From an uncultured Mycoplasmatota bacterium (GTDB taxonomy: Bacteria > Bacillota_I > Bacilli_A > Izemoplasmatales > Izemoplasmataceae): DNA of 64,000 bases. The translations under genes were made by a program, and so were the position numbers. This document shows positions 18,503-55,177 of this stretch, in pieces. The stretch's first letter is position 1. The number at the start of each line of letters is the position of its first letter. Below the pieces are notes generated by a model, which did no database searches, was not told where the DNA came from, and saw only the letters and a program-made list of their open reading frames with translations. The stretch is taken from NCBI GenBank assembly GCA_913062645.1, contig CAJXVW010000001.1:434001-498000 (forward strand). Direction: 5' to 3'.

Positions 18503-19972
18503 ATGCGAATCTGGTTGAAACGTGTCTTGATTGTGGCTGCTTTGATGACGACGGCCTTGGTGCTGCAACAGGTCAGTGCGACGTCGCTTTGGCTCAATAC
18601 GACGACCGATGACGAGCTCGTCGCCACCTTTGAACGGTTGCGGGAGCGCAGCGAGCAAATCAATGACTTGGTTGACGATACGCTCGGCATCGATCCGCAG
18701 GCGGACTTCGAACGACTGTTTGATCCAGCGGTTCGTCATACTTTCATCATCGATTTCTCACAAGCGGAGTTTGATGGTCTGATCACGGACATGACGGATT
18801 ATTATGAAGAATATGGAACGTACAAATCCAACAACTACCGTACCGTCACCGTGACCTACGCTGCCGATGACGACGTGCAAATCATCGAGAACGTCGGCTT
18901 TCGCAGCAAAGGTAACATCTATTCGCGGCGCTTGCCGATCGACGAACAAGGCAATGCCAGGGAAATCCATTTCATGCTCAAGTTCAACGAAACCTTCGAT
19001 CTACTCCCGGGAGAAACCGGCTTCAATGAGTTGAAGACCCGTGAGTTTGCCAATCTCGAACGGCTGATCTTCAAATGGAACCGTATCAATGATCCGACGT
19101 ATTTGAACGAAGTGTTCAGCTATGAGATGATGCGGCAGGTCGGTGTTCCGGTTCCTCGTGCGGGCCTGGCCGAAGTGTTGATTCGCGTCGACGGCAAACT
19201 GAAACTCATGCGCCTTTACAACATCTTCGAAGCGCACGACGAAGAATTTCTCCGCCGCGTATTCGACATCGAAGAAGTCGGCGACTTGTACAAGGGCCAA
19301 TGGTCGGCCACACTCGAGCCGATCACCTCGAGTGAGCAGTATGGCATCCGCGACTGGCGCTACAATCATCGTCCTCTCTATGGCAAAGAAACCAACGAAG
19401 ATCAATATACCTATGACACGCTGATTCGTTTCACCAACGGCATCAATCAGGCCGACCCGGCCGCACGCATCGCCTACATGCAGGAACATTTCAACATCGA
19501 TTCGTTTTTGCGGGCGATGGCGATGAATGTGCTGCTTGGCAATCCCGACGATTATCGAGGCAACGGCAACAACATGTATTATTATCTCGATCAAACGGAG
19601 TTCATGACGTACTTGCCGTTCGATTACGACAATTCCATGGGCAGTGGCTGGGACGGGGCACCGGCGTTCATCAACCGCACCATCGACAACGACATTTACG
19701 AGTGGGGCTGGTTCGACTGGAACACGTTCGAGATTCCCCTTTGGACCAATCTCATGGAACACGAACAATATCGCATCCAATACGAGAATTACCTGGAAGA
19801 GTTCATCACCAGCGGGCTGTTCAGTAACGCCAGTTACCGTGCGTTGTTTGATCAGGCTGACGCCCTGTACGGCGATTATTATGACATGTATTACGACAAG
19901 ACATCTTACATAAATGACAAAATTGATGCGGTGCTCGAGGATCTCGCCTATCATCGAGCTCTTAGGAATTGA
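18503..19972 (+). CDS. Secreted CotH-type protein kinase family protein
   Basis: The 489-residue protein has an N-terminal signal peptide or anchor (hydrophobic residues 8-21), so it is exported. The CotH kinase core is visible: 'NLERLIFKWNRINDPTYLNEVFSYEMMRQVGVPVPRAG', 'LMRLYNIFEAHDEEFL', 'MAMNVLLGNPDDYRGNGNNMYYYLD', and YLPFDYDNSMG, equivalent to the metal-binding DFD-like motif. CotH is an atypical kinase first known for phosphorylating Bacillus spore coat proteins; homologues occur with exported polysaccharide enzymes. The next gene, an exo-beta-glucanase-like lipoprotein, starts 14 bases after its stop, and the promoter resembles that of the main glucan locus, so its target may be a surface glucanase or binding protein (inference). 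Confidence 0.82.
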   Translation: MRIWLKRVLIVAALMTTALVLQQVSATSLWLNTTTDDELVATFERLRERSEQINDLVDDTLGIDPQADFERLFDPAVRHTFIIDFSQAEFDGLITDMTDYYEEYGTYKSNNYRTVTVTYAADDDVQIIENVGFRSKGNIYSRRLPIDEQGNAREIHFMLKFNETFDLLPGETGFNELKTREFANLERLIFKWNRINDPTYLNEVFSYEMMRQVGVPVPRAGLAEVLIRVDGKLKLMRLYNIFEAHDEEFLRRVFDIEEVGDLYKGQWSATLEPITSSEQYGIRDWRYNHRPLYGKETNEDQYTYDTLIRFTNGINQADPAARIAYMQEHFNIDSFLRAMAMNVLLGNPDDYRGNGNNMYYYLDQTEFMTYLPFDYDNSMGSGWDGAPAFINRTIDNDIYEWGWFDWNTFEIPLWTNLMEHEQYRIQYENYLEEFITSGLFSNASYRALFDQADALYGDYYDMYYDKTSYINDKIDAVLEDLAYHRALRN

Positions 19973-19986
19973 AAGGTGGACATAAC

Positions 19987-21570
19987 ATGAAACGCATTTT
20001 TCTACTATTTACATTCGTTACGCTGATCGGGTCGCTCGCCGCCTGCGACGATCCCGACACCAGAACCGTCACGGTTCCCGATTTCGTCGGCTCGGCCTAT
20101 GGTGACGTACTCGCGTGGGCCAAGGACAACGACATCGAACTCGACGTATCCAGTGAGTACAACGACGATGTCGACCCCCGTGCGGTCATCTCGCAAAGCG
20201 TGGCCGGTGGTACCGACATCGATCCCGATACGGTCCTCGTCATTGTGTATTCCCGTGGTTACGACCCGGATGGTGTCATCACGGTGCCTGACTTCACAGG
20301 ATCGACCCAAGATGACATCGTTGCATGGTTGAGCGAGGTCAACATTACTAAGTATGCGTTTTTCGATACGTTCAGTCCCGACATTGACGAAGGCGGGTTC
20401 GTCGGCTACGACGTTGACAAAGCAGACGATCGCGACGACTATCTGCGTCGCGACAACTACACCTTCTATTTCTCCAAGGGAGAACTGGTCATCGAGCCAG
20501 TCGTCTTCGACAATCCAGGCACCATTCGCGGGGTCAATCTCGGCGGTTGGTTCGTCCTCGAAGGTTGGATGGCGCCTGATCTGTTCGAAGGCGTCAGTGG
20601 TAGTGATGAAACGATCTTCATGCAGGAAAAACCGAATGCCATGGAAGCCATTGAAGAACATTGGAACACGTTCATCGTCGAGGACGATTTCGCCTGGTTG
20701 GCCGAACACGGCGTCGAGTATGTCCGTCTGCCGATCCCCTGGTGGTTGTTCGGAGAAGAGTTTTCCTACACCCACGATGGTGTCACTCACAATGTCACCT
20801 ATGGCCGTTCACTGCCGTATATTGAACAGGCCATGGAATGGGCCGAAACCTACGGCATCAACGTGCTCCTCGATCTCCATACCGCTCCCGGCAGTCAGAA
20901 CGGTTTTGACAACGGCGGCATCACCGATGTCCTGCAGTGGCCGCGCCCGGAGAACGTAGCGAAGACGGTAGCGGTGCTTGGCGACATCGCCGAACACTTC
21001 AGTGACTATGATTCGCTGTGGGGAATTCAGGTTCTCAACGAACCCGGTTGGGGCGTCGACATGACGATTCTTCAGAACTTCTATGTTGATTCGTACCATG
21101 AAGTTCGCCAACACAATGCCGATGTCTGGATCGCTTTTCATGACGGGTTCCGCAACTACCTGTTCGACAGCTGGAACAATTTCTTCACCACAAATCAGTT
21201 TCACAATGTGTTCTTCGACATTCATCTGTATCAGACCTTTGGTGACGGATGGGGCGATTATGACATCTTCGACCATGTCGACTTCGTCCACAACGAGCAG
21301 ATGCAGACCATCGCCCGTTACGATGGTGTCGTTCCGGTTGTCATCGGTGAATGGTCGCTCGGACTGCAAGGCAATGTCTATGAAGGATTGGATGCATCCG
21401 GTGCGAACGATGTCCGCATGGCATTCAACAACGCTCAAATGAATGTGTACGAAGATGCGTTCGGATGGTTTTTCTGGAGTTACAAGATTGATCGTGACAG
21501 TCATCTCGAGTGGGACTTCCGACGACTCATCGAGCAAGATTTGATACCAGATTTTTACAGTACGGAATAG
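19987..21570 (+). CDS. PASTA-GH5 lipoprotein, exo-beta-1,3-glucanase-like
   Basis: The 527-residue protein has a signal peptide with lipobox SLAAC (Cys20), two PASTA-like domains (about 27-90 beginning VTVPDFVGSAYGDV, and 97-165 beginning ITVPDFTGSTQDDI), then a GH5 barrel from about 180. The start IRGVNLGGWFVLEGW is the hallmark of fungal-type exo-1,3-beta-glucanases (GH5_9-like). Predicted acid/base is E352 in VLNEPGW and nucleophile E455 in VIGEWSLGL. It should release glucose or short sugars from beta-glucan at the outer membrane face. PASTA modules normally bind peptidoglycan or beta-lactams; here they may tether the enzyme to the wall. ATG 19987 puts the signal peptide at residue 1. A cytosolic paralogue lies at 35547. 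Confidence 0.88.
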   Translation: MKRIFLLFTFVTLIGSLAACDDPDTRTVTVPDFVGSAYGDVLAWAKDNDIELDVSSEYNDDVDPRAVISQSVAGGTDIDPDTVLVIVYSRGYDPDGVITVPDFTGSTQDDIVAWLSEVNITKYAFFDTFSPDIDEGGFVGYDVDKADDRDDYLRRDNYTFYFSKGELVIEPVVFDNPGTIRGVNLGGWFVLEGWMAPDLFEGVSGSDETIFMQEKPNAMEAIEEHWNTFIVEDDFAWLAEHGVEYVRLPIPWWLFGEEFSYTHDGVTHNVTYGRSLPYIEQAMEWAETYGINVLLDLHTAPGSQNGFDNGGITDVLQWPRPENVAKTVAVLGDIAEHFSDYDSLWGIQVLNEPGWGVDMTILQNFYVDSYHEVRQHNADVWIAFHDGFRNYLFDSWNNFFTTNQFHNVFFDIHLYQTFGDGWGDYDIFDHVDFVHNEQMQTIARYDGVVPVVIGEWSLGLQGNVYEGLDASGANDVRMAFNNAQMNVYEDAFGWFFWSYKIDRDSHLEWDFRRLIEQDLIPDFYSTE

Positions 21571-21592: not shown

Positions 21593-21885
21593 TTTAGAAA
21601 AATGTTTCGTGAAAATGGTTCAAAATATCGGCTTCTTGGCCAGCAAAAATGGCTCAATAATTCACTTAATCTAGATTTTCCGAAAACTCACTAAACAAGC
21701 CGTTAAACGGAAATGTAAGCGATTTAAGAAAACGATTTAGATAAAATTGTTGAAAACGATTTCGTTGTATGCTATACTTTAACCGAAGTGGGCATTTCAT
21801 ATGTCTTTTGCGTGTGTGCGCAATGCGTCACCGTCGCAGAATTCGTTTTGAAGCCAATCAAAATTTTAGGAGGAATTTGAAAGAG
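21593..21885 (+). promoter_or_regulatory. Regulatory gap before the binding lipoprotein gene: promoter and clustered operator-like sites
   Basis: The gap from 21571 to 21885 has no gene. After the UUCG terminator it is AT-rich. Promoter: TTGAAA (21750-21755), 17-base spacer, TATACT (21773-21778). Operator-like sites: tgtaagcgatttaa (21714-21727, 13 of 14 to the cre consensus TGWAANCGNTNWCA), agaaaacgatttag (21727-21740), and tgaaaacgatttcg (21751-21764), which overlaps the -35. A small inverted repeat ccgttaaacgg lies at 21700-21710. The leader from promoter to ATG is about 100 bases and ends with TAGGAGG. Confidence 0.55.
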
Positions 21886-24800
21886 ATGAAGAAATTACTA
21901 TTGGTTTTTACCGCTTTGGCTCTCACGCTCGGACTGTCCGCATGTGACATGTTCGGCGGTGGCGAAGACATCGATCCCGAAGATGTTCTGACAGCGATTA
22001 CCCTGTCCGGCATCGAAGATGTGGAAATCGAAGCGGAAACAGCATTCAACGCACTCACCGGCATCACTGCCATGGGTGACGACGATGTCGACTATTCGGA
22101 ATTCATTAGTGTGGATTCGGAAGTTTGCGACATCGCCGATGACGGCACGGTCGACACCGATACGGCCATGACCTGCGTCATCAACTATACCGTTGTTGCC
22201 GGTGGCAAACTGGCCCGCGGCAGCATGACCCTCACCATTACTCCGAAGGAAATCATCATTGACGATGCCCCGCTCTTGATCGGCTGGGATTTTGAAGAAG
22301 AAGCCGATCTCGAAGGCTGGAGCATCTACACAGCCAATGGCGGCGCGATTGACATGTCAATCGAAGACGGCGCCATGAAACTGATCACCGAATCCGGAGG
22401 TCAGCGTTTCGAAACACGCTTGGACTACCAAGGCTTGCCGCTGGAACAAGGATATCCGTATAAAGTCTCATTCCGTGCGAAATCCGACATCGACGGCAAG
22501 AAAGTTCACCTCAACTTCGGTGAATTGCTCGCCTCTGACCCCTGGTTCACACCATTCAAACCGGAAGGTGTCGACATCATCACGCTGTCAACCGAATGGC
22601 AAGAATTCTCGTTCACCTTCAACATGGAACTCAACAACCAAAACGGCGGACCGCTGTTTGAAATGGGTGACATGGAAGGCAGCACCGGCCTTGACGCCAC
22701 GATTTGGATTGACGATCTGATGATCGAAGGCGGCAGTGGGACGGACACCTTGGACCCCGTCTTTGAAGGCGTGGAAGACACCGTTTTGTACATTGGTGAC
22801 CAAACCACCTATGACGTTCTGGCTGGAATCACCGCCACCGACCTGACCGATGGCGATCTGACGGCCGACATCGTTGTCGGCGGCGATACGCTCGACATCA
22901 ATACGGCTGGTACCTATGTCATTACGTACACGGTCAGCGACGCAGCTGGCAATGAAGCGACCGCATCGCGTACGATCGAAGTCAAGGAAGACACCGACGC
23001 TCCGGTTCTTACCGGTGTTAACGACGTAACCGTCATCGTTGGTGAAAACTTTGATCCGCTTGCCGGCGTAACCGCAATCGACGGCCGCGACGGCGACGTA
23101 ACGGACGACATCGTTCTGACGGGCGACACCTATGAAGAAGTAGAAGGAACCTATACCCTCACCTACACGGTTGAAGATGCGCTTGGCAACAGTGTCACCG
23201 TTGACCGCGTGGTTGAAGTGCTCGACCTGACCTTTGTCGATGCTGGCAACCTGACCAACGGAACCTTCGATGCCGGTTACTGGAACGCTTATTGGGAAAG
23301 CTGGAATGGCGCAGACGCCTTCTTCAGCACTTCCGATGATGGCTTGGTCATCGACATCAAAGCTGTCGGCGGCGACTTCTGGCACGTGTTGATTGAACAA
23401 CCTGCTGGCGGCATCACCATGGAAGCCGGCAAAACCTATCGTCTCACCTTCGACGCCATGAGCAGCGTTGCCCGTGACATCCAAGTGGAAGTTGCCGGTG
23501 CTGGATTGACTCCCGCACAGGAAACCGTTTCACTGACGGACACCATGACCACGTACACCGTCGACTTCACCAGCGCAACCGCCACCGGCGGCCAGCTGAA
23601 GTTCCTGATGGGCTTGATCAACGGTGCTGGCGCAAGCGTCATTACCATTGACAACGTCATGTTCGAAGAATTCGATGGAACCGACATCGTTGCCGAAACC
23701 GACCAAGTCATGGACGGTTCGTTCGATGAGTATCAGAACATCGGTTGGGGCGTATGGTCTGCAAATGACAACACCCAATATCAAGTACAATGGCAAGAAG
23801 CATGGGTTACCTACGAAGAAGCAAATGCCAACCCATGGGAAAACAAATTGGAACAGCTTGGCCTCGACATGATTCCGGGACTCTATTACCGTGTAACATT
23901 CGATGCCAAAGGTGACGCGGCCCGCGACTTCATCGTTGGTTTCTGGGATGGCGGAACTGCATTCGAAAAAATGTTCGAACTCGGAACCGAATACCAGACG
24001 TACACCTGGATCTTCAAATATACCGGTGGCTCCACGGCCGCGCTCGAATTCAAACTCGGACAATCCTCTGACAACTACGAAGGCACTCTGTTCATCGTCG
24101 ACAACGTCTCCATCGAAGTCGAAGATGCCGAACCGCCTGCGCCGCTTACTCTGGATACCTATCCGAACCAAGAATTCACCGATACCGACATTTCCGGTTG
24201 GACCACAGAAGGTACGCTTACCTTGTCGCACGATGCAATGGGATACCTCGTTGCCACCGTCACCGAACTCGGCGCGAACCCCTGGGATCAGAACATTGGC
24301 TTCCCGGGACTGAACGTATACGCTGGCTACACCTACACGGTCTCTTACACAATCAAGACAGCGTTCGCGGAAGGCCGCGACGTGACCTTCTTCGCAGAAG
24401 ACACGAACAACGGTTATGCGAAATACTTCGAAACAACCGAAACGCTGACCGACGCCTTCCAGACCTTCACCTACACCTTCACCCCGACTGCTGACAACGA
24501 CGATACCAAACTCGGCATCTTCCTTGGCAACACTTCGAATCCGTTGATCGGTGACGTGGTCATCGACTCGATCATCGTAACCGTCGAAGAAGCAGTCGTA
24601 GATCCCGAACCCGAGTGGGTCGATTACGGCATCGGCGTCACCGAAGACGCAGGCGTCGCCACGATGACCTACGCGGACATTCCGACTCCTTGGTACAACG
24701 CCAACGCTCAATACACGAACTTCACGTTCGACGGCACCTATGAATCCATCGAGTTCACCTTCACCGGAGTTGACACCCATGTCTACCTGTTCAAGATTGA

Positions 24801-25731
24801 AGGCGGCGGCAACGCCAGAGAAACCGAAATCACCGCTGACGGAACCGAACAGACGGTCGTCATCAGTCTGTCCGATCTGACGAAAGAAGAGCGTGACGCT
24901 CTCAACCTGATTATCTTCTTCGTGAAAACCGAAGGTTCCAGCGGAACGGCAACCGTTGCCTGGAATTATCCCGCCGCAAGCCCCGAATGGGTTGATTACG
25001 GCATCGGCGTTACCGAAGATGCAGGTGTCGCCACAATGACCTACACCGCGATCCCGACTCCTTGGTACAACGCCAATGCCCAGTATACGAACTTCACCTT
25101 TGACGGTGCCAAAGACATGGTTGAATTCACCTTCACCGGTGTCGACACCCATGTCTACCTGTTCAAGATCGAAGGCGGCGGCAACGCCAGAGAAACCGAA
25201 ATCACTTCAGACGGAACCGAACAGACGGTCGTCATCGACCTGTCCGATTTGACTCCCGAACAGCGTGCGGATCTCAACCTGATGGTCTTCTTCGTGAAAA
25301 CCGAAGGAGCCTCTGGAACAGCCACCGTATCATTCGAGTTCAAAACCGCTCCCGCTTGGAATGCCTATGGCATGACCTTGACGGAAGATGCCGGTGTTGC
25401 CACCATCACCTACACCAGCATTCCCACTCCCTGGTACAACGTGAACGCGCAATATCAGAACCTTGAGTTCGACGGTACGCAAGACGCCATCGAATTCACC
25501 TTCACCGGCACGGATGGTCATCTCTATCTGTTCAAGATCGAAGGCGGCGGCAATGCCACCGAACTGGAAATCACCGCAGACGGAACCGAACAGACACTCT
25601 TGATTCCGCTCACCCAGTTCACGGAAGCAGAACGCGCCGCGTTCAACCTGTTGATCTTCTTCGTCAAAACCGAAGGAGTATCCGGAACGGCCACGGTAAC
25701 CTGGGATTACGCCGTAGCACCGACCACCTAA
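21886..25731 (+). CDS. Multi-domain carbohydrate-binding lipoprotein without catalytic domain
   Basis: The 1281-residue protein begins with a signal peptide and lipobox LGLSAC (Cys about 20). Modules in order, approximate: short Ig-like region (30-120); CBM4/9-like sandwich (125-285); two DUF5011-like Ig repeats with TAGTYVITYTVSDAAGN and 'VEGTYTLTYTVEDALGN' (290-450); two more CBM4/9-like modules (455-600, 605-745) and a fourth (750-905); then three near-identical ~123-residue repeats (from 24610, 24982 and 25351) beginning with 'WVDYGIGVTEDAG' and containing LFKIEGGGNA. No glycosidase motif is seen. CBM4/9 modules bind beta-glucans, xylan and similar polymers, so this is likely a surface capture protein, analogous in role to SusE/F. 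It is transcribed alone between two terminators. Confidence 0.8.
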   Translation: MKKLLLVFTALALTLGLSACDMFGGGEDIDPEDVLTAITLSGIEDVEIEAETAFNALTGITAMGDDDVDYSEFISVDSEVCDIADDGTVDTDTAMTCVINYTVVAGGKLARGSMTLTITPKEIIIDDAPLLIGWDFEEEADLEGWSIYTANGGAIDMSIEDGAMKLITESGGQRFETRLDYQGLPLEQGYPYKVSFRAKSDIDGKKVHLNFGELLASDPWFTPFKPEGVDIITLSTEWQEFSFTFNMELNNQNGGPLFEMGDMEGSTGLDATIWIDDLMIEGGSGTDTLDPVFEGVEDTVLYIGDQTTYDVLAGITATDLTDGDLTADIVVGGDTLDINTAGTYVITYTVSDAAGNEATASRTIEVKEDTDAPVLTGVNDVTVIVGENFDPLAGVTAIDGRDGDVTDDIVLTGDTYEEVEGTYTLTYTVEDALGNSVTVDRVVEVLDLTFVDAGNLTNGTFDAGYWNAYWESWNGADAFFSTSDDGLVIDIKAVGGDFWHVLIEQPAGGITMEAGKTYRLTFDAMSSVARDIQVEVAGAGLTPAQETVSLTDTMTTYTVDFTSATATGGQLKFLMGLINGAGASVITIDNVMFEEFDGTDIVAETDQVMDGSFDEYQNIGWGVWSANDNTQYQVQWQEAWVTYEEANANPWENKLEQLGLDMIPGLYYRVTFDAKGDAARDFIVGFWDGGTAFEKMFELGTEYQTYTWIFKYTGGSTAALEFKLGQSSDNYEGTLFIVDNVSIEVEDAEPPAPLTLDTYPNQEFTDTDISGWTTEGTLTLSHDAMGYLVATVTELGANPWDQNIGFPGLNVYAGYTYTVSYTIKTAFAEGRDVTFFAEDTNNGYAKYFETTETLTDAFQTFTYTFTPTADNDDTKLGIFLGNTSNPLIGDVVIDSIIVTVEEAVVDPEPEWVDYGIGVTEDAGVATMTYADIPTPWYNANAQYTNFTFDGTYESIEFTFTGVDTHVYLFKIEGGGNARETEITADGTEQTVVISLSDLTKEERDALNLIIFFVKTEGSSGTATVAWNYPAASPEWVDYGIGVTEDAGVATMTYTAIPTPWYNANAQYTNFTFDGAKDMVEFTFTGVDTHVYLFKIEGGGNARETEITSDGTEQTVVIDLSDLTPEQRADLNLMVFFVKTEGASGTATVSFEFKTAPAWNAYGMTLTEDAGVATITYTSIPTPWYNVNAQYQNLEFDGTQDAIEFTFTGTDGHLYLFKIEGGGNATELEITADGTEQTLLIPLTQFTEAERAAFNLLIFFVKTEGVSGTATVTWDYAVAPTT
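24610..25728 (+). repeat. Three tandem in-frame repeats of about 370 bp in the binding lipoprotein gene
   Basis: Units start at 24610, 24982 and 25351. Each encodes about 123 residues: a start like W-x-x-YG-x-x-x-TEDAGVAT, then IPTPWYN-x-NAQY, EFTFTG, LFKIEGGGNA, DGTEQT and FFVKTEG-x-SGTATV. Units 1 and 2 are nearly identical at the protein level; unit 3 is more diverged. I do not recognise the domain; a beta-sandwich binding module is likely. Confidence 0.88.
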
Positions 25732-25751: not shown

Positions 25752-25781
25752 AAAACGGAGCGATTTCGCTCCGTTTTTTTT
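25752..25781 (+). terminator. Terminator after the binding lipoprotein gene
   Basis: aaaacggagcg / cgctccgtttt stem with a 4-base loop followed by eight T. Confidence 0.88.
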
Positions 25782-30960: not shown

Positions 30961-31019
30961 CGAAAACGCTATTGTATAACGCTTACATTTATTGTATAAT
31001 GAAATCGAAATCGTTTTAG
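30961..31019 (+). promoter_or_regulatory. Promoter and operator cluster of the main glucan operon
   Basis: TTGTAT (30972-30977), 17-base spacer, TATAAT (30995-31000). Operator-like sites: cgaaaacgctattg (30961-30974) just before the -35; gtataacgcttaca (30974-30987), whose reverse, TGTAAGCGTTATAC, is cre-like, in the -35/spacer; and cgaaatcgttttag (31006-31019), just after the -10. These positions suit repression by a LacI-family protein such as that encoded at 56836, plus possibly CcpA. Confidence 0.55.
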
Positions 31020-31068: not shown

Positions 31069-34000
31069 ATGACAGACTACCATTTCGATAACAATGAATT
31101 CATCATTGAACAGTACGATAAGAAAAAGACGTTTTCCAGCTTCCTGCCGGGCATGGCAGGAAAGCGAGGAATCCCCCTGTGGGCGTTCTACGTCAACCGC
31201 GGGCAAGGCATCGCCAGTTTCGGGATCGAGAACAAGGATCGCCAGATTCTTGAGTTCTCCCCCGCAGTCAAAGCATATCAAACCGTCGGCACCGACGGTT
31301 TTCGGACATTCGTCAAGATCGACGGCAAGACCCACGAGTTGTTTGCCGAGAACGACGATCACACCACCCGTCGTCTGCGGATCAAACGCAGCGAGTTCAC
31401 CATCGAGGAGACCAACCACGATTTGAATCTCAAGACGACCGTCACCTATTTCGGTCTTCCCAATCGCAACATCGCGGCACTTGTCCGCGTCGTCAACATC
31501 ACCAATCTCAACGATGAACCCATCGCGTTCGAACTGATCGACGGGCTCAGTCAGTTGTTGCCGACCGGTGTCAGCCAGCACAGCATGAAGATGCTGACGA
31601 ACCTGATGCGCAGCTGGATGGAAGTCTACCGCTTGGATGACAATGTTGGTTTCTATCGCATGCGCAGCTCCTCGGCCGACACCGCGGAAGTGGTGGAGAT
31701 TGAGGATGGCAACTTCTATGTGTCCAGTGTCAACGGTGAGTTGCAGCGTCCGATCGTCGACCAACGGTTGGTGTTCGGAACCGACACGACCAAACGACGC
31801 GCCCGTCATTTCGAACAGACGAGCCTGAAGGACATTTGTGATTCGGAGCAGGTCACCGCCAATAAGATCCCGGTCGGTTTCACCGCCCTCGACGTCGCAC
31901 TGAATGCCGGTGAAACGGTTCGCATCAATACGCTGATCGGGCACATTCACTGCCCCGACTACCTCGTTGAAATCGCCCCCGCAATCAGTTCCGACGATGC
32001 CGTCGACAAAGCGCGTCTCGACGCCGCCCTCGTCATTGACGAACTGCTTGATGAAGTGGCGACCAAAACGGCATTTCCGATCTTTGACGATTACATCAAA
32101 CAAAACTATCTCGACAACATGCTGCGCGGCGGCTACCCGATGATCATCGAGGGTTCCGACAAGAACTTCGTCTATCATCTGTTCTCCCGTCGCCATGGCG
32201 ATCTTGAGCGCGATTACAACTACTTCACGATCGCCCCAGAGTTCTACAGTCAGGGCAACGGCAGTTTCCGGGATGTGTGTCAAAACCGGCGCAGCGACAC
32301 GTTGCTCAATCCACTGGTCGGCGACTTCAACATGAAGATGTTCGGATCGCTGATCCAAGCCGACGGGTTCAACCCGCTGTCCATAGATGGATCGACGTTC
32401 GCCATCGCCGACAAGCAACAAGCCCGTGATCTTGCGACCGAGCTGTTCGGCGGCGACGCCACGATGACCGCTTTGTTGATGAATTCGTTCACACCCGGCA
32501 GCATCATCAACACGATGGCCAACCACAATATCACCAGCGATCTCTCCGACGATGAACTGTTCGCACGTATCTTCGCTCATGCCGAACAACGCTTTGAAGC
32601 GCACTTCGCCGAAGGGTACTGGATCGATCACTGGACCTACATTCTCGATCTGGTCGAAAACTTCGAAGCAATCTATCCCGATCAGATGGAACACGCACTC
32701 TTCAACGATGTGACCTACAAATATTTCGACAGCCCGAATTACGTGCTTCCGCGTGATGAGAAAATCTGTCTTACCGCCGATGGCAAGGTGCGTCGCTACG
32801 GCAGCCTGCTCCATAACGACGAAGAGAAAATCCGTCGACTTGGATTGAATCCGAACCGTGCCCATTGGCTGCAAAGTGAAACGGGTGCGACCGTGTACGG
32901 GTCCTTGTACGAGAAACTGCTCGTGCTCGCCGTCAACAAGATCGCCAGTCTCGACCCCAGCGGCATCGGCATCGAAATGGAAGCCGACAAACCCGGTTGG
33001 AACGACGCCATGAACGGACTGCCCGGACTATTCGGCAGCGGCGTCAGCGAGACGATCGAACTGAAACGCGTCGTCCGCTTCTTGATCTCGCATTTCGATG
33101 CATCCGTATCGTTCAAACTGCCGGCGGAGTTCATCGCCTTCATGAAGGACCTTGCCAGTGCGCTCGACGCCATCACGGACGACTTCCATTTCTGGCAGAA
33201 AATCAACGACGCGAAAGAAGCCTATCGCGCGGCGATCCGCTTCCACACCAGCGGGTTGGAATACGCGGATTCCGATGCGATCCTCAGTCTTCTCGAAGCG
33301 ATGGATCACAAGATCGATCATGCCTTGACCAAGGCCCACCGTCTCGGTAACGGCATCTATCCGACCTATCTGGTCCATGACGTCACCGCATATGAGCCGG
33401 TCATCCAGCGCGGCAAACCGCACATCGGCAACTACGGTCTTCCGACCGTCCGCCCCACGCAGTTCAAACTGCGGGCGCTGCCATTCTACCTTGAAGCCCC
33501 GGCCCGGGCACTCAAGGTGATGAAGTCCCACAACACCAAAGAATCGATGTTCCGCCGCATCAAGGCGTCGAACATCTACGACCATGAACTGAAGTTTTAC
33601 AAGACCAGCGAGTTCCTCGACGCCGAATCGAACGAAATCGGTCGCGGCCGCAGTTTCACCAAAGGATGGCAGGAGCGCGAATCGAACTTCCTCCACATGA
33701 CCTACAAATATCTGCTCGGGCTGCTCAAGGCCGGACTGTACCAGGAGTTTTTCGAGGAAATACGGACCAATCTGACGATTTTCATGGATCCCGCTGTCTA
33801 TGGGCGGTCGACGCTGGAGAACTCCAGTTTCATCGCTTCCAGCATCAATCCCGATCCGTTCGTCCGCGGTCAGGGCTACGTCGCCCGCCTCAGTGGGTCG
33901 ACTGCCGAAATGCTCTCCATCTGGGCGCTGATGATGTACGGCAAACAGCCGTTCGTCATGGACGGCAACGAACTCACGCTGCAACTGCGTCCGATTCTCA

Positions 34001-34212
34001 CCAAGGAGTTCTTCACCGATGGTACGGTGACATTCACGTTCCTCGGCACGATTCGCGTCACGTATCACAACGAGAGTCATATCGATACCTTTGATCCCGA
34101 CTTCGCCATCGACCGTTATGTGGTGGACGGCAACGAAGTCGACGCCATTCGCGGCTCGCTTGCCGAAGCCGTCCGCAACCGTACCGTCAAGACAATCGAC
34201 ATCTACTTCTAG
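31069..34212 (+). CDS. GH94-clan glycoside phosphorylase, probably beta-1,3-oligoglucan phosphorylase (GH149/GH161 type)
   Basis: The 1047-residue cytosolic protein has the plan of inverting glycoside phosphorylases: N-terminal beta-sandwich, then an (alpha/alpha)6 barrel. The WND motif at 644-646 in 'KPGWNDAMNGLPGLFGSG' places the catalytic acid at D646, as in cellobiose phosphorylase. GH94 enzymes have about 800 residues, while the 1050-1100 residues here fit GH149/GH161 beta-1,3-oligoglucan phosphorylases. The reaction would be phosphorolysis of beta-1,3-glucan oligomers to glucose-1-phosphate. First gene of the long operon, with an operator-rich promoter and TTAGGAGTG before the ATG. Exact CAZy family cannot be fixed by eye. 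Confidence 0.78.
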   Translation: MTDYHFDNNEFIIEQYDKKKTFSSFLPGMAGKRGIPLWAFYVNRGQGIASFGIENKDRQILEFSPAVKAYQTVGTDGFRTFVKIDGKTHELFAENDDHTTRRLRIKRSEFTIEETNHDLNLKTTVTYFGLPNRNIAALVRVVNITNLNDEPIAFELIDGLSQLLPTGVSQHSMKMLTNLMRSWMEVYRLDDNVGFYRMRSSSADTAEVVEIEDGNFYVSSVNGELQRPIVDQRLVFGTDTTKRRARHFEQTSLKDICDSEQVTANKIPVGFTALDVALNAGETVRINTLIGHIHCPDYLVEIAPAISSDDAVDKARLDAALVIDELLDEVATKTAFPIFDDYIKQNYLDNMLRGGYPMIIEGSDKNFVYHLFSRRHGDLERDYNYFTIAPEFYSQGNGSFRDVCQNRRSDTLLNPLVGDFNMKMFGSLIQADGFNPLSIDGSTFAIADKQQARDLATELFGGDATMTALLMNSFTPGSIINTMANHNITSDLSDDELFARIFAHAEQRFEAHFAEGYWIDHWTYILDLVENFEAIYPDQMEHALFNDVTYKYFDSPNYVLPRDEKICLTADGKVRRYGSLLHNDEEKIRRLGLNPNRAHWLQSETGATVYGSLYEKLLVLAVNKIASLDPSGIGIEMEADKPGWNDAMNGLPGLFGSGVSETIELKRVVRFLISHFDASVSFKLPAEFIAFMKDLASALDAITDDFHFWQKINDAKEAYRAAIRFHTSGLEYADSDAILSLLEAMDHKIDHALTKAHRLGNGIYPTYLVHDVTAYEPVIQRGKPHIGNYGLPTVRPTQFKLRALPFYLEAPARALKVMKSHNTKESMFRRIKASNIYDHELKFYKTSEFLDAESNEIGRGRSFTKGWQERESNFLHMTYKYLLGLLKAGLYQEFFEEIRTNLTIFMDPAVYGRSTLENSSFIASSINPDPFVRGQGYVARLSGSTAEMLSIWALMMYGKQPFVMDGNELTLQLRPILTKEFFTDGTVTFTFLGTIRVTYHNESHIDTFDPDFAIDRYVVDGNEVDAIRGSLAEAVRNRTVKTIDIYF

Positions 34213-34227
34213 GGGAGGAACATGCTC

Positions 34228-35550
34228 ATGGCAACCATCATCCGTACCGAACAGGCATCCGACAAACGGCTGCACAAAGATACACTGAAACCAACTCCGG
34301 TGGAATCGGTCGACATCCGACTCGACCCCAAATCCACCTATCAGACCATGCTTGGATTCGGCGGCGCCTTCACCGAATCGAGTGCCTACAACCTCGCCCG
34401 CATCAACAAGACCCAGCGGATGCAGGCGATCAAGGACTATTTCGATCCCGAGGAGGGACTCGGCTACACGATTGGACGCGTCAGCATCCACAGTTGCGAC
34501 TTCAGTCTTCACAGTTACACCTACATCGACGAAGGCGACAAGGATCTCAAGACCTTTGACATCAGCCGTGACGAGCAATGGGTCATTCCGCTGATCAAGG
34601 ACGCCGAATCGTTCGCCGGACCGATTTCATTGCTGGGTAGCCCGTGGAGTCCACCGGCCTTCATGAAAGACAACAACTCGATGATTCACGGTGGGAAACT
34701 CCTGCCGGAGTATTACCAAACCTGGGCCGACTACTTCGTCCGGTTCGTCGAAGAATACCGCAAGCGCGGTCTGACGATCTGGGGCGTCACCGTTCAGAAT
34801 GAACCGGCCGCCGTCCAACGCTGGGACTCCTGCACTTACACCGGCGAGGACGAACGCGACTTCGTCAAGAACTATCTCGGCCCGACGATGAAACAGTCGA
34901 GCGCCAAGGACGTCAACATCCTCATCTGGGATCACAATCGCGACGTCATCGTCGAACGCGCCAAAGCGGTATTGGACGACCCCGAAGCCGCCCAATACGT
35001 TTGGGGCACGGCCTTCCACTGGTACGTCAGTGAGGAGTTCGAAAACGTCGGCAAAGTTCACGAACTGTTTCCCGACAAGGGCCTCTTGTTCACCGAAGGC
35101 TGTCAGGAAGGCGGCGTCCATTGGAAGAGCTGGAAAACCGGCGAACGTTATGCTCGCAACATGATCGGCGACTTCAACAATTTCTGTCAAGGCTACATCG
35201 ACTGGAATTTGTTCCTCGACAACACCGGCGGTCCCAATCACGTCAACAATCTTTGCGACGCGCCGATCATCGTCGACGTGTTCCCAGAGAAACTGGTCCA
35301 TCAAAGCAGTTACTACTACATCGGACACTTCAGCAAATACATCCGGCCCGATGCCGTCCGCATCGGCAACGACAACAGCCACCCGGTGTTGCAATCGACG
35401 GCATTCCAAAACACCGACGGCACGATTGCGCTCGTGGTGCTCAACGAAACCGACCAAGCGCAGGAAGTCCGCATCGCGCTGGGTGAGCAAACCTATCAAA
35501 CGACCCTCGCGGCGCATTCGATCGCGACCCTCCTTTTGGAGGACAAGTGA
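34228..35550 (+). CDS. GH30 family glycosidase, cytosolic (beta-1,6-glucanase/beta-glucosidase type)
   Basis: The 440-residue protein starts its catalytic part with 'YQTMLGFGGAFTESSAYN', the GH30 hallmark, then SPWSPPAFMK, acid/base E192 in VTVQNEPAA and nucleophile E290 in LLFTEGCQE. The C-terminal beta-domain ends the chain. GH30_1/GH30_3 members include glucosylceramidases and beta-1,6-glucanases; in this locus removal of beta-1,6 branches of laminarin-type oligomers is the natural inference. No signal peptide. ATG 34228 is favoured over 34222 because GGAGG sits 9 bases upstream. The stop overlaps the next GTG start by 4 bases. Confidence 0.88.
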   Translation: MATIIRTEQASDKRLHKDTLKPTPVESVDIRLDPKSTYQTMLGFGGAFTESSAYNLARINKTQRMQAIKDYFDPEEGLGYTIGRVSIHSCDFSLHSYTYIDEGDKDLKTFDISRDEQWVIPLIKDAESFAGPISLLGSPWSPPAFMKDNNSMIHGGKLLPEYYQTWADYFVRFVEEYRKRGLTIWGVTVQNEPAAVQRWDSCTYTGEDERDFVKNYLGPTMKQSSAKDVNILIWDHNRDVIVERAKAVLDDPEAAQYVWGTAFHWYVSEEFENVGKVHELFPDKGLLFTEGCQEGGVHWKSWKTGERYARNMIGDFNNFCQGYIDWNLFLDNTGGPNHVNNLCDAPIIVDVFPEKLVHQSSYYYIGHFSKYIRPDAVRIGNDNSHPVLQSTAFQNTDGTIALVVLNETDQAQEVRIALGEQTYQTTLAAHSIATLLLEDK

Positions 35551-36554
35551 ACAAACTGCGCGCCGTCAATCTCGGTGGCTGGTTCGTTCTCGAACGGTGG
35601 ATGAAACGCTCGTTGTTCGAAGGCACCAAGGACAAGTGCCACGATGAAACCTGCTTCTCGACGCAACTCGCCGACAAGGACGAGCGGCTCGAAGCGCACT
35701 ACAAGACTTGGATCACCCGTGATGACATTGAGTGGCTCAAGAATGCCGGAGTCAATCTCGTCCGCATTCCGATCCCCTGGTGGCTTCGCGGCGAAGGTGT
35801 CTATCACCGCAGTGTGGAAGCACTTGACGCCGCGCTGGCGATGATCGAAGACGTCGGACTCGACTTCATGCTTGATCTGCACACGGCGCCGGGTTGTCAG
35901 AACGGCTTCGACAACGGCGGCATCCAGCATGTCATCGACTGGCCCAAGGACCCCGCCAACATCGACACCACGATCGACATCCTGGCATTCGTGATGGAGC
36001 GCTACAACGACATGCCCCATTTCCACAGCATCCAACTGCTGAACGAACCGCACATCTCGATCGATCTGGAACTGCTGCAGGATTTCTACGTGCGCAGCTA
36101 CCAGCGTCTGCGCCAGATCCATCCGACGCGTTACATCGTGATGCACGACGGGTTCCGCTTCAAGAAGTGGAAGGAGTTCTTCACCACCAACGATTTCACC
36201 AACGTCATTCTCGACACCCACATGTACCAGTGCTTCGATCACAGTCTGTTCGACTACACGATCGAAGAACACTGCAAACATGCCATGAAACGCACAAGAC
36301 TCCTCGCTGACGTGGAACGCTACGTTCCCGTAATCGTCGGTGAATGGAGCCTGGGACTCCGCATGAACGGACATCTCAGCCAAGACGACAACGACGCCAA
36401 CCTCGCCAAGTACGCCTCGGCCCAGCTGACTGCCATGCGCCAAACGACCGGACACGTGTTCTGGAGTTACAAAGTCGCCGATGCCTTCAGCGGCTGGAAC
36501 TTCCGGGCCCTGGTCGACCGCGGCGTCATCGACATGAAGGAGTTCAACCAATGA
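35547..36554 (+). CDS. GH5 glycosidase, cytosolic exo-beta-1,3-glucanase-like
   Basis: The 335-residue protein starts directly with AVNLGGWFVLERW, the motif of exo-1,3-beta-glucanases, and lacks a signal peptide. Predicted acid/base E167 (LLNEPHI) and nucleophile E266 (VGEWSLGL) are present. It is clearly paralogous to the lipoprotein GH5 at 19987 (shared 'LDLHTAPG-x-QNGFDNGGI' and GEWSLGL) but lacks the PASTA domains. The GTG start (35547) overlaps the GH30 stop (GTGA) with TTGGAGGA upstream. It ends 4 bases into the next ATG. Likely trims imported glucan oligomers. Confidence 0.88.
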   Translation: MNKLRAVNLGGWFVLERWMKRSLFEGTKDKCHDETCFSTQLADKDERLEAHYKTWITRDDIEWLKNAGVNLVRIPIPWWLRGEGVYHRSVEALDAALAMIEDVGLDFMLDLHTAPGCQNGFDNGGIQHVIDWPKDPANIDTTIDILAFVMERYNDMPHFHSIQLLNEPHISIDLELLQDFYVRSYQRLRQIHPTRYIVMHDGFRFKKWKEFFTTNDFTNVILDTHMYQCFDHSLFDYTIEEHCKHAMKRTRLLADVERYVPVIVGEWSLGLRMNGHLSQDDNDANLAKYASAQLTAMRQTTGHVFWSYKVADAFSGWNFRALVDRGVIDMKEFNQ

Positions 36555-38437
36555 AAAAACTGATTTTGCTGTTGAGTATATTCACCGCCGTCACGCTGAG
36601 CGCGTGCACGGCGGACGAAGAACCGATCGACAACACGATCGACTGTGAGCAGTTCCCGACGCACCGCGACTGCAGTGACGATCCCGATCCGGAACCAATG
36701 CTTTGTGACGGACTCGGCGACGCCTGCATCGAGGAGGTCGAAGAGTTGCTTGCCACCTTGACGCTCGAACAGAAAGCGGCGCAGATGATTCAGGCCGAAC
36801 GCTCGAGCATCACCCCAGGCCAAGTCGAGACGTATGGCATCGGCTCGATCCTGTCGGGTGGCGGATCCCATCCGTCGGCCTACGACAACACCACCGACGA
36901 GTGGTTCGCGATGTACGAAGCCTACCAGCAGGCGGCGCTTGACGCCGACGCCGGCATTCCGCTTCTGTACGGCATCGACGCCGTTCACGGCAACAACAAT
37001 CTCTACGGTGCGACGATCTTTCCGCACAACATCGGCCTCGGTGCCGCCAATGACGCGCAACTGATGTACGACATCAGCGCTGCCACGGCCCGCGAGATGC
37101 TTGTGACCGGCATCCAATGGAACTTCGCCCCGGCGCTGTCGGTGGTACAGAACATCCGGTGGGGACGGACGTACGAAGGATTCAGCGAAAATCCGATCAT
37201 CCACGACAACTTGACAGCGCAGGCGATTCTCGGTTATCAGGATCTCGACGTGATCGCCACAGCCAAACATTACTTCGGTGATGGTGGAACTTCCGGTGGC
37301 GTCGATCAAGGCAACAGTGTGATGCTCAGTCAGGATGTCATTGACATCCACATGGCGCCCTACATTGAAGCCGTCGAAGCTGGCGTGGACACGATCATGA
37401 TTTCCTACAGCAGCGTGAATGGCACCAAGATGCACGGCAGTCAGTACTGGATTACCGAGATTCTCAAGGAAGACATGGGCTTCGAAGGGTTCATCATCAG
37501 TGACTGGAACGCCATTCACCAGCTGCCGGGCGACTTCGAAGATCAGATTGTACTGAGCATCAATGCCGGTGTCGACATGTTGATGGAACCCTACGACTGG
37601 GAACAGGCGATGCAACTGATCGTCGAAGCGGTCGAAGGCAATCGCATCGACGAAGAACGCATCGACGACGCCGTCCGTCGGATTCTCCAGATCAAGCACA
37701 AACGGGGATTGTTCGACGATCCGTTCCGCCGTCTTGACGACAGTCATCTGTATTCCGACGATCACGCCGCACTCGCGCGCGACGCCGTGAGAAAATCACT
37801 GGTGTTGCTGGAAAACGACAACGATTCGCTGCCCTTGGACAAGAACGACACCATCTATCTGCTTGGTCCCGGCGCCGACAACGTCGGATATCAATCCGGA
37901 GGGTGGACCCGGTTCTGGCAAGGCACCGAAGACGCCGACCTTGGCGTCGGCAGCAGCATCCTCGACGCGTTCACCGAAGTGCTCGCCGCGAATGGTGGAA
38001 CGTTGGTCAACACGGTCGCCGCCGCCGATACCGTGGTCGTGGTACTGGCCGAAACACCCTACAGCGAAGGCTGGGGGGACAACGACAACCTGACCCTCAC
38101 CGGTGGCAACGCCCACGTTGGTAACGCCGCCGCGCTGACGATTGCCGCTCAGGCCCAAGCCGCCGGCAAGAACGTCGTCGGCATTCTGATCAGCGGACGA
38201 CCGCTGCTCCTGGAAGACCATCTCGATCACTTCGACAGTTTCGTCGCCGCCTGGCTGCCCGGAACCGAAGGAGGCGCCGGCATCGCCGATGTGCTGTTCG
38301 GGGATTACGACTTCCACGGAACCCTCAGTTTCACCTGGCCGGCGACATTCGAACAAGTCGGCTACACCTCGAATCGCGAGGATTACGATGAGATGTTGGT
38401 GCAGTATCCGTTCGGATACGGCTTGACATACAACTAA
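36551..38437 (+). CDS. GH3 beta-glucosidase lipoprotein
   Basis: The 628-residue protein has a signal peptide and lipobox TLSAC (Cys19), so it is displayed outside the cell. A cysteine motif DCEQFPTHRDC (31-41) follows, repeated in the GH16 lipoprotein at 55178. The GH3 N-terminal barrel has 'GIDAVHGNN', 'ATAKHYFGDGG' and the nucleophile D318 in IISDWNAI; the second (alpha/beta) domain follows, with LVLLENDN and 'PFGYGL' at the end; no FnIII-like domain. It should release glucose from glucan oligomers at the surface. The start overlaps the GH5 stop (ATGA) with AAGGAG upstream. Confidence 0.9.
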   Translation: MKKLILLLSIFTAVTLSACTADEEPIDNTIDCEQFPTHRDCSDDPDPEPMLCDGLGDACIEEVEELLATLTLEQKAAQMIQAERSSITPGQVETYGIGSILSGGGSHPSAYDNTTDEWFAMYEAYQQAALDADAGIPLLYGIDAVHGNNNLYGATIFPHNIGLGAANDAQLMYDISAATAREMLVTGIQWNFAPALSVVQNIRWGRTYEGFSENPIIHDNLTAQAILGYQDLDVIATAKHYFGDGGTSGGVDQGNSVMLSQDVIDIHMAPYIEAVEAGVDTIMISYSSVNGTKMHGSQYWITEILKEDMGFEGFIISDWNAIHQLPGDFEDQIVLSINAGVDMLMEPYDWEQAMQLIVEAVEGNRIDEERIDDAVRRILQIKHKRGLFDDPFRRLDDSHLYSDDHAALARDAVRKSLVLLENDNDSLPLDKNDTIYLLGPGADNVGYQSGGWTRFWQGTEDADLGVGSSILDAFTEVLAANGGTLVNTVAAADTVVVVLAETPYSEGWGDNDNLTLTGGNAHVGNAAALTIAAQAQAAGKNVVGILISGRPLLLEDHLDHFDSFVAAWLPGTEGGAGIADVLFGDYDFHGTLSFTWPATFEQVGYTSNREDYDEMLVQYPFGYGLTYN

Positions 38438-38473
38438 GGCTACAAGATACAAAAAAATATTATGGAGGTAAAG

Positions 38474-40099
38474 ATGAAGAAGTTACTATTGGTATTAACC
38501 GTCGCAGTGATCGCGCTGGGCCTCACCGCCTGTAATGGCACCCCCGAGGAACAGTACGAAGGACTCGACACGGAAGTCAGTGGTGTCATCGACCTGATGC
38601 TCTGGAGTGGCTCCGGAACATATTGGGAAGACATCGGCAACCAGAATCTGACGACCGCAGATTTGTTGGCACAGAACGACGCCGCCGCGTATTATGTGGC
38701 GAAGGAGTTCAATCAGATTTACCCGAACGTCCAGATCAACGTCCTGGCCGTTGCGGGCGGACCCACCGACGGTGGCCGCATCTGGGCGCAGGAACTTGCG
38801 AACTACGAAGCGGAACACGGAGCCCATCCGGGCATCTGGGCAACCGTCGACCTGCCGGGTGACATCGAAAAAGGCATCGTCGCCGATCTGTCTCGTTTCG
38901 AAGACGATCCCCTGTATCAAGCCATGAACCCGTCGATCATGGAAATGATGAACTACTACGGATTCCAAGGCGGTCTCCCGCAGTACATCCTGCCGTGGGG
39001 CATCTACGTCAACAAGGAACTGGCCGAAACCCAGAACCTCGACGTGCCCGATCCCGATTGGGACATCGACGATTACACCGATTTCATCGCCAACAGCGAA
39101 GAAGACGTGTTCTATGGTTCGATGGACACCCCGCTGCGCATTTTGGAAACCGGCAGCAACACCGTCCACAAACAACTGTTTGAATACGACGGCACCGGCG
39201 ACTATGTTGATCTCAACAGCACCGAAGTCCGCGACCTCATTCCGTATCTGGAAGAGTGGAACGAACATTCACTGTGGGGCGGCAGCCCGAGCCAGGAATT
39301 CATGGACGCCGGCTGGTGGTGGAGCTACAAGTTCTTCCTCGAGAACAAGCTTCTGACCCTCGAAGGCGACCCGTGGATGATGGGCGACTGTGCGACTCCG
39401 ATCGATCCGGAAAACCCGTGGTGGGGCGCATGTAAATCGAGCGACTGGGACATCTATCCGCGTCCCGCGACCGATTACGTCGACAACACCGTCGGCATCG
39501 TCCTCGACCCGATGGCGGTCTACAACTACTGCCTCGACGATGGCGACATCGCCTGTACCGAAGAAGAAGAACTGCGCATCAAGATCGCTTACACCTTCGC
39601 ATCGTTCTGGATCGCCGATTCCCGCAGCTGGGAAGTCCGTGCCGCCGGTGAGTTCACCGACGAAGCCAACGGCGTCACCAGCTCGGCTCTGAACGACAGC
39701 TTCCCGGTCGTCACCGGTGATCTGTTCGACGAACAGATGGAAATCTGGTACACTCCGGAAAAACACCAGCGCTTCGCCGACCAAAGTCTGATGCCGGGCT
39801 TCCATGAAGTTCTCCGCATCTACGAAGAAGGTCAGTTCTGGGACATCAGCGACAAATCCTTCCCGTACTTCTACAACGTCGAAGGAACGCGTCGTGAAAA
39901 TCTCTACGAGTGGAAAAACTACTGGAACGCCGACATCAACGGCGGTGTAGAGAAGGGGGACGCCGACTTCGTCAACACGATCCTCGGTAACCTCGCGACC
40001 TGGAACGAAGACGCCAATGCACGCTTCGCCGAATCGTTCGAAGGCATGCAAGAAGGCTTGATCCGGTTCTACGGATACACCGAAGAAGACTTTCAATAA
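38474..40099 (+). CDS. ABC transporter sugar-binding lipoprotein (extracellular solute-binding protein)
   Basis: The 541-residue lipoprotein has lipobox LGLTAC (Cys about 17) and the look of family 1 carbohydrate-binding proteins: 'VAKEFNQIYPNVQINVLAV', 'GLPQYILPWGIYVNKEL', and a late 'AYTFASFWIADSRSWEVRA' helix region with many Trp and Tyr. It is longer than usual (420-450), as for proteins binding long oligosaccharides. GGAGG overlaps an in-frame ATG at 38462, so ATG 38474 is the start. A hairpin after the gene probably lets it be made in excess over the permeases. The ligand is inferred to be beta-glucan oligomers. Confidence 0.88.
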   Translation: MKKLLLVLTVAVIALGLTACNGTPEEQYEGLDTEVSGVIDLMLWSGSGTYWEDIGNQNLTTADLLAQNDAAAYYVAKEFNQIYPNVQINVLAVAGGPTDGGRIWAQELANYEAEHGAHPGIWATVDLPGDIEKGIVADLSRFEDDPLYQAMNPSIMEMMNYYGFQGGLPQYILPWGIYVNKELAETQNLDVPDPDWDIDDYTDFIANSEEDVFYGSMDTPLRILETGSNTVHKQLFEYDGTGDYVDLNSTEVRDLIPYLEEWNEHSLWGGSPSQEFMDAGWWWSYKFFLENKLLTLEGDPWMMGDCATPIDPENPWWGACKSSDWDIYPRPATDYVDNTVGIVLDPMAVYNYCLDDGDIACTEEEELRIKIAYTFASFWIADSRSWEVRAAGEFTDEANGVTSSALNDSFPVVTGDLFDEQMEIWYTPEKHQRFADQSLMPGFHEVLRIYEEGQFWDISDKSFPYFYNVEGTRRENLYEWKNYWNADINGGVEKGDADFVNTILGNLATWNEDANARFAESFEGMQEGLIRFYGYTEEDFQ

Positions 40100-40135
40100 T
40101 CACTAGCGCAACACCTTAGCAACGATTTTCCAATG

Positions 40136-40176
40136 GAAACGCCCCGAGGACGGGGTCTTCGGGGCCGTTTCTTTTT
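40136..40176 (+). terminator. Intra-operon hairpin (attenuating terminator) after the solute-binding protein gene
   Basis: GAAACG-CCCCGA pairs with TCGGGG-C-CGTTTC, with one bulged C, around a 12-base loop and five T after the stem. It lies 36 bases after the stop and just before the ribosome binding site of the next gene. Such partial terminators typically lower expression of downstream permease genes. Confidence 0.7.
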
Positions 40177-40195
40177 GGTACAAGGAGGAGATTCG

Positions 40196-43171: not shown

Positions 43172-44115
43172 TGCAGACCACCTTGAACAAGCAAAACGTC
43201 GGTGATTACGAACGAATTTCCAAACGACGCGACAAGATATCGACGTTCTTGCTGTTGCTTCCCTACGTCCTCCTGTTCTCGACGTTCATCATCATTCCGA
43301 TCCTCGTCTCCGGCGCGTTGTCGTTCTCGTACTTCAATCTGATCGAAGCACCGCGTCTGGCCGACTTGTTCGGATTCTACAACTACGTCATTCTCGTCAC
43401 GCAAGATGAAAACTTCCTGCGTTACGTCATTCCCAACACCATCAAGTATTCGTTCATCGTCGGTCCCGGCGGATACATCCTCAGCTTCATCATGGCTTGG
43501 ATGCTGTCGCAGATTCAAGCGACTCCGCGCAAATGGATCAGCCTGGCGATGTACACCCCCAGCATGGTCGGCGGCGTCTTCATCACCGTCGTCTGGCGCA
43601 CGATGTTCTCCGGTGACACATCGGGGTACATCAACGCCATCCTGCTGTCGAATGACATCATCGACGAAGCGATTCAGTTCCTCCAGGACCCGGCGTATCT
43701 GCTCAACATCATGATTCTGGTATCGCTTTGGAGCAGCATGGGCATCGGCTTCCTGGCCATGCTCGCGGGTCTGCTCAACGTCGACAAGACGCTGTATGAA
43801 GCGGCGCTCGTCGACGGCATCAAGAACCGCTTCCAGGAAATCATCTACATTACCATTCCGCAGATGAAACCGCAGATGCTGTTCGGGGCCGTCATGGCCA
43901 TCGTCGGCGCCTTCAACAGCGGTTACATCGGCGTCGCACTGTCGGGTCAGAACCCGACGCCGCAGTATTCCGGACAGTTGATCATCAACCACATGGAAGA
44001 CTTCGGTTTCATCCGATATGAAATGGGCTACGCAGCCGCCATCAGCGTCGTGCTGCTGCTCATCGTATTCATGTTCAGCCGCGTCGCGTACGCGCTGTTC
44101 GGGGACAAGGGGTGA
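43171..44115 (+). CDS. ABC sugar transporter permease (MalF type)
   Basis: The 314-residue protein has six predicted membrane helices and the EAA loop 'YEAALVDGIKNRFQEIIYITIPQMKP', which docks on the ATPase. Its ATG overlaps the stop of the large solute-binding protein gene by one base; the MalG-type partner follows after 6 bases. It is the first of two permease pairs in the locus. No ATPase gene is in the operon. Confidence 0.92.
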   Translation: MQTTLNKQNVGDYERISKRRDKISTFLLLLPYVLLFSTFIIIPILVSGALSFSYFNLIEAPRLADLFGFYNYVILVTQDENFLRYVIPNTIKYSFIVGPGGYILSFIMAWMLSQIQATPRKWISLAMYTPSMVGGVFITVVWRTMFSGDTSGYINAILLSNDIIDEAIQFLQDPAYLLNIMILVSLWSSMGIGFLAMLAGLLNVDKTLYEAALVDGIKNRFQEIIYITIPQMKPQMLFGAVMAIVGAFNSGYIGVALSGQNPTPQYSGQLIINHMEDFGFIRYEMGYAAAISVVLLLIVFMFSRVAYALFGDKG

Positions 44116-44121
44116 TCGCAG

Positions 44122-49881: not shown

Positions 49882-49882
49882 C

Positions 49883-51827: not shown

Positions 51828-51828
51828 C

Positions 51829-52761: not shown

Positions 52762-52769
52762 GAGACACC

Positions 52770-55137: not shown

Positions 55138-55177
55138 ATCATAGGTTTTGTGTTCGTGCTGCGACAAGGAGGACACC

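Follow-up and report, generated by a model that had tools for sequence, protein, structure and literature searches.

A putative enzyme-free lipoprotein for surface capture of beta-glucan in the Izemoplasmatales

Described glucan systems and the Izemoplasmatales locus

The SusE/SusF and SGBP-B proteins of Bacteroidota are enzyme-free surface lipoproteins that combine Ig-like spacers with several glycan-binding sandwich modules and are co-regulated with a glucan locus. Gram-positive polysaccharide utilisation loci (gpPULs) are described as having no surface glycan-binding protein (SGBP), its place often being taken by CBMs that are part of endo-acting enzymes (PMC10318527); the Blautia producta MLG locus, for example, contains a regulator, a GH16 enzyme, an ABC transporter, a cytoplasmic phosphorylase and glucan CBM4s (PMC10318527). 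A third group, the GH161 clusters, including that of Acholeplasma laidlawii, brings GH161 together with GH16, GH3, GH30 and ABC permeases, and the portion of the account drawn on here describes no binding-only lipoprotein within them (PMC6484121).

The 64,000-nucleotide stretch of an uncultured Izemoplasmatales genome analysed here (contig CAJXVW010000001.1; hereafter the window) contains a locus with the components listed above for both the Blautia producta and the GH161 clusters. Unlike the enzyme-fused CBMs of gpPULs, however, CBMs of this locus are located on a separate, enzyme-free lipoprotein of 1281 residues (21886..25731, + strand), which, judging from its sequence and structural models, probably retains beta-glucan on the surface of the cell. 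It would thus be an exception to the gpPUL picture of PMC10318527, and it is an element not described in the portion of the GH161 account referred to above.

The lipoprotein shares with SusE/SusF and SGBP-B its surface lipoprotein nature, Ig-like spacers, multiple sandwich modules, lack of an enzyme and co-regulation with a glucan locus. Its construction is different, being assembled from CBM4 modules and a C-terminal repeat (CTR), and Pfam searches of the full protein identify neither a SusD domain nor the SusF_SusE domain PF16411. The hosts also differ, as a wall-less monoderm that relies on ABC transport has neither SusC nor an outer membrane. The likeness is convergent and does not reflect homology of the protein as a whole. 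An earlier note on this DNA had proposed a role like that of SusD/E/F; the comparison suits SusE/F or SGBP-B, which are multi-domain surface binders, but does not extend to SusD, whose delivery role is presumably filled, by analogy, by the ABC solute-binding lipoproteins of the locus.

Neither a PBP transpeptidase nor FtsW/RodA is found in the source genome, which is 99.7% complete, whereas the same searches do detect them in 10 of 14 control genomes. For a cultured relative, the absence of a distinct cell wall has been reported (PMC8397711). Together these observations suggest that the lipoprotein should directly face the medium.

Modular architecture and CBM4 kinship

The 1281-residue translation, beginning MKKLLLVFTALALTLGLSAC, starts with a type II signal peptide (21886..21945) that ends in the lipobox LSAC with Cys20. 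In the whole protein, Pfam recognizes CBM_4_9 in three stretches (5.5e-30) and PF16403, Bact_surface_Ig-like, in two (5.8e-27). The modules, all on the + strand, follow one another closely. A degenerate Ig-like domain (21997..22251; residues ~38–104) scores below the cut-off (PF16403, 0.0026) and resembles the next Ig domain; it is followed by CBM4 module A (22264..22728; PF02018, 9.3e-10), Ig-like domains 1 (22750..22983; PF16403, 2.2e-16) and 2 (22993..23223; PF16403, 3.6e-15), and CBM4 modules B (23230..23673; PF02018, 3.9e-11), C (23683..24141) and D (24154..24585; PF02018, 1.3e-11). The C-terminus consists of three CTR copies (24604..24969, 24976..25341 and 25345..25710), the second of which was modelled. 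The lipobox, the four CBM4/9-like sandwiches, the two Ig repeats and the three C-terminal repeats that the earlier note had read from the sequence are thus all present, and the weak N-terminal Ig-like domain is added to them. A lipoprotein signal accompanied by binding and spacer modules only is one of the features of the SGBP functional class.

Modules A, B and D exceed the Pfam cut-off for CBM4, and module D finds its best PDB match in 1gui (1.4e-6). Module C (residues 600–752) has no Pfam match, yet is similar to its sibling CBM modules in the same protein. A 23-sequence profile of module C matches 1gui in the PDB at 1.8e-27, versus 9e-11 or worse for cellulose- and xylan-binding CBM4s, and its AF2 model (pLDDT 86.5), the one made of a CBM4 module, has the CBM4 jelly-roll fold, with 1gui ranked first by Foldseek (TMq 0.76, 1.5e-10). 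Because sibling similarity, profile and fold agree, module C is assigned to CBM4, and on these sequence and model comparisons all four CBM4 modules are considered real. By profile and fold, their nearest solved relative is the CBM4 of Thermotoga maritima Lam16A, 1GUI, which binds laminarin. In that structure a laminari-oligosaccharide is bound in mid-chain (PMC3975366). The Lam16A module is attached to a laminarinase, whereas those of the lipoprotein are located on an enzyme-free protein.

An orphan, disrupted CBM4 fragment is located elsewhere in the genome (L002:1501-1794; contig C2:152103-152396). It is 56% identical to residues 810–907 of the lipoprotein and may be what is left of another copy of the gene.

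Promoter, regulon and genomic context

The gene appears to have its own transcription signals, as the earlier note had supposed in describing a promoter with three operator-like sites. A sigma-70-type promoter, TTGAAA-17-TATACT with TG before the -10 (21750..21778, +), and a ribosome-binding site, AGGAGG (21868..21873, +), are accompanied by O1, GTAAGCGATTTA (21715..21726, +), O2, GAAAACGATTTA (21728..21739, +), and O3, GAAAACGATTTC (21752..21763, +), the last of which overlaps the -35 and spacer. All of these elements are kept together in four genomes (the window, L038, L010 and L011), and on this conservation the three operators are considered real. An intrinsic terminator with an 11-bp stem and a T run (25752..25777, +) follows the gene, which is therefore probably transcribed on its own, with the suf operon downstream.

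To build a PWM, 12 sites were taken from GH30/GH161 promoters in L031, L035 and L036, three genomes other than the source genome, and the matrix was scanned over the 64-kb window. The three highest scores are at 21752 (O3, the best match) and 21728 (O2, the third best) in the lipoprotein promoter and at 31007 in the GH161 promoter; O1 also matches the matrix. The top 13 further include 55099 (GH16-LacI), 30975 and 30962 (GH161) and 18449 (CotH-GH5), and three matches lie elsewhere. With a second matrix, which also included the window's own GH161 sites, none of 2000 shuffles contained three sites at the observed level. Scans for perfect palindromes with a central CG identified no intergenic operator; the operator form is an imperfect site of the GAAAACGATTTC type. 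The matches at their promoters indicate that four transcription units, those of the lipoprotein, GH161, GH16-LacI and CotH-GH5, form one predicted regulon. The lipoprotein would accordingly be regulated with a glycan utilisation locus, a further property of the SGBP class. The LacI-family protein encoded within the GH16-LacI unit (56836-57852) is the predicted regulator.

The following neighbouring genes lie on the + strand. Pfam identifies a CotH-type kinase (18503..19972) and, directly upstream of the lipoprotein gene, a PASTA domain and GH5 exo-beta-1,3-glucanase (19969..21570), in the same order as in L038. The GH161 beta-1,3-glucan phosphorylase (31069..34212) matches 9qqk, a solved GH161, in the PDB at 782 bits; in view of this match, GH149, the best NCBIfam match, was rejected as an assignment, its 111 bits falling far short of the cut-off (1150). 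It is followed by GH30, GH5, GH3, an SBP-like lipoprotein, a long SBP, four permeases, an NHL/TPR/Yip1 protein, a DUF5696-CBM4/9 protein, GH16 and GH3 (34222..54983), and then by a GH16-CBM6 laminarinase, the LacI-family regulator and GH16 (55148..58556). The gene at 38462-40099, which has no Pfam match, was considered as a binding-module protein and reads instead as a second solute-binding lipoprotein.

The 1012-residue solute-binding protein (40133-43171) has nearly 600 residues before its SBP domain, with a weak CBM35 trace, and long forms recur in relatives. The NHL/TPR/Yip1 membrane protein (44991-47024) and DUF5696-CBM4/9 protein (47011-49881) recur near permeases in L029, L034, L039 and L041. 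PASTA domains usually bind peptidoglycan, and here one is fused to the GH5 exo-beta-1,3-glucanase in a genome from which PBP transpeptidase and FtsW/RodA are missing. The CotH-type kinase gene carries an operator of the glucan regulon in its promoter.

Relatives were found by a contig profile search with the CTR alignment, which recovered CTR proteins where a single-protein query found none. Within the order, 22 of 90 genomes contain CTR, and in 14 of these the match has an E below 1e-30. A sample of 392 genomes from the phylum yields 13 with CTR, every one in the same class. Named carriers are Izemoplasmatales, Acholeplasmataceae and Paracholeplasma vituli, the rest being MAGs labelled Bacillota, Bacilli, Bacillales or Tenericutes. 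Among CTR proteins that extend to a start codon, most have a lipobox at the N-terminus. At least 17 genomes of the order have a relative of the lipoprotein gene directly downstream of GH161 (93–526 bp, same strand), a count that takes in all CBM4/Ig lipoproteins resembling the 1281-residue protein, with or without CTR. In L029, L031, L033, L035 and L036, the CTR lipoprotein gene is flanked by GH161 on one side and by the solute-binding protein and permease genes on the other. GH161 occurs in all 14 genomes with a strong CTR match versus 34 of the 76 others (Fisher p 5e-5, uncorrected for kinship). Two observations point the other way. In the source genome the lipoprotein gene lies outside the GH161 operon, with suf genes between them, and the CTR lipoprotein gene of P. 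vituli (L028:9179-10759) adjoins oligopeptide-type ABC genes and has no linkage to glucan genes there.

The predicted role in surface glucan capture has good support: the CBM4s are nearest to a laminarin binder, the GH161 and GH16 units carry the same operators, GH161 linkage recurs across the order, no enzyme is hidden in the protein and the cell is wall-less. Taken as a whole, the data are best explained by a membrane-anchored, enzyme-free protein of a wall-less cell that captures laminarin-type glucan and is regulated with glucan genes, an explanation that we consider likely. The lipoprotein would be anchored to the single membrane, with its Ig domains keeping the binding modules away from it, and the avidity of its seven modules could keep long chains of the laminarin type close to the GH16, GH5 and GH30 enzymes. 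Oligosaccharides freed by these enzymes would pass to the solute-binding proteins of the ABC transporter and undergo intracellular phosphorolysis by GH161, and the LacI-family repressor, probably 56836-57852, may leave the promoter once glucan oligosaccharides arrive. If so, a Bacteroidota strategy has arisen again from other parts, in the form of an enzyme-free binder that is widespread in wall-less Bacilli and co-regulated with glucan genes, and laminarin is indicated as a food for a group known chiefly from studies of how DNA is degraded in marine sediment.

The protein could instead be an adhesin whose main task is to attach entire cells to particles rich in glucan, algal debris for instance, and which has no specific role in feeding the transporter with glucan. 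Repeated binding modules in such number, carried on Ig spacers, do resemble a surface adhesin, and similar Ig and CBM modules occur in other large proteins of the source genome; nevertheless, operators held in common with catabolic units, and the GH161 or transporter genes that adjoin the gene in relatives, suit nutrition better. Adhesion as the main function is thus unlikely, although the two roles overlap.

The C-terminal repeat as a candidate CBM family

The three CTR copies are about 122 residues each and 67–85% identical to one another. Across 28 copies from eight genomes, N34, Q36, K64, E66, E73, G80 and F106 are invariant, and an aromatic pair occupies positions 30–31. CTR has no sequence match in Pfam, NCBIfam or the PDB. 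Its AF2 model (pLDDT 97.8) has a beta-sandwich CBM fold by Foldseek, with best matches to CBM11, CBM29 and CBM28 (TMq up to 0.68, 8–16% identity), and Bacteroides SGBP-B is also among the top matches. These nearest folds differ from CTR in that CTR has no sequence match to them, is smaller (122 residues) and is arranged in tandem. Assignment of CTR to CBM4 was not adopted, as hhalign against a CBM4 set gives a probability of 17%. On its model, therefore, CTR is a CBM-like sandwich without an assigned family among Pfam, NCBIfam and the PDB, and its fold suggests that it binds glycan. Judged by sequence against the same three databases, it is a candidate new CBM family, which a recent CBM family may cover.

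A broader proposal is that CTR founds a new CBM family found solely in wall-less Bacilli (Izemoplasmatales, Acholeplasmatales and their kin) and that its lipoproteins represent a separate, independently evolved class of enzyme-free SGBP for wall-less cells with one membrane. This is advanced tentatively, its chances being slightly less than even; if it is correct, a new CBM family becomes available.

The CBM4 and CTR blocks might also divide the work, the CBM4s holding glucan and the CTRs holding something different, such as a partner protein or glycans of the cell envelope itself, so that the lipoprotein acts as an enzyme-organising scaffold. The absence of a sequence link between CTR and any CBM family in the databases searched is compatible with such a division, as are the grouping of the CTRs in one C-terminal block and the occurrence of CTR outside glucan loci (L028). 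However, most fold matches of CTR are polysaccharide-binding modules, neither cohesin nor dockerin is found (Pfam, NCBIfam), and the alternation of the invariant N34/Q36 and K64/E66 along strands is what a ligand face would show, so that a scaffold is improbable. That one module is a divergent catalytic domain, hidden or lost, is hardly credible: the stretch that escapes Pfam is the CBM4 module C, every other stretch has a module assignment, and, in agreement with the earlier note's reading of no catalytic motif, Pfam and NCBIfam identify no catalytic domain in the lipoprotein, nor does any of the 14 CTR relatives scanned have one above the Pfam cut-off. Two traces among relatives, SusF_SusE in L040 (19.3 bits) and a Scabin-like match in L030 (20.5 bits), are below the cut-off and were disregarded.
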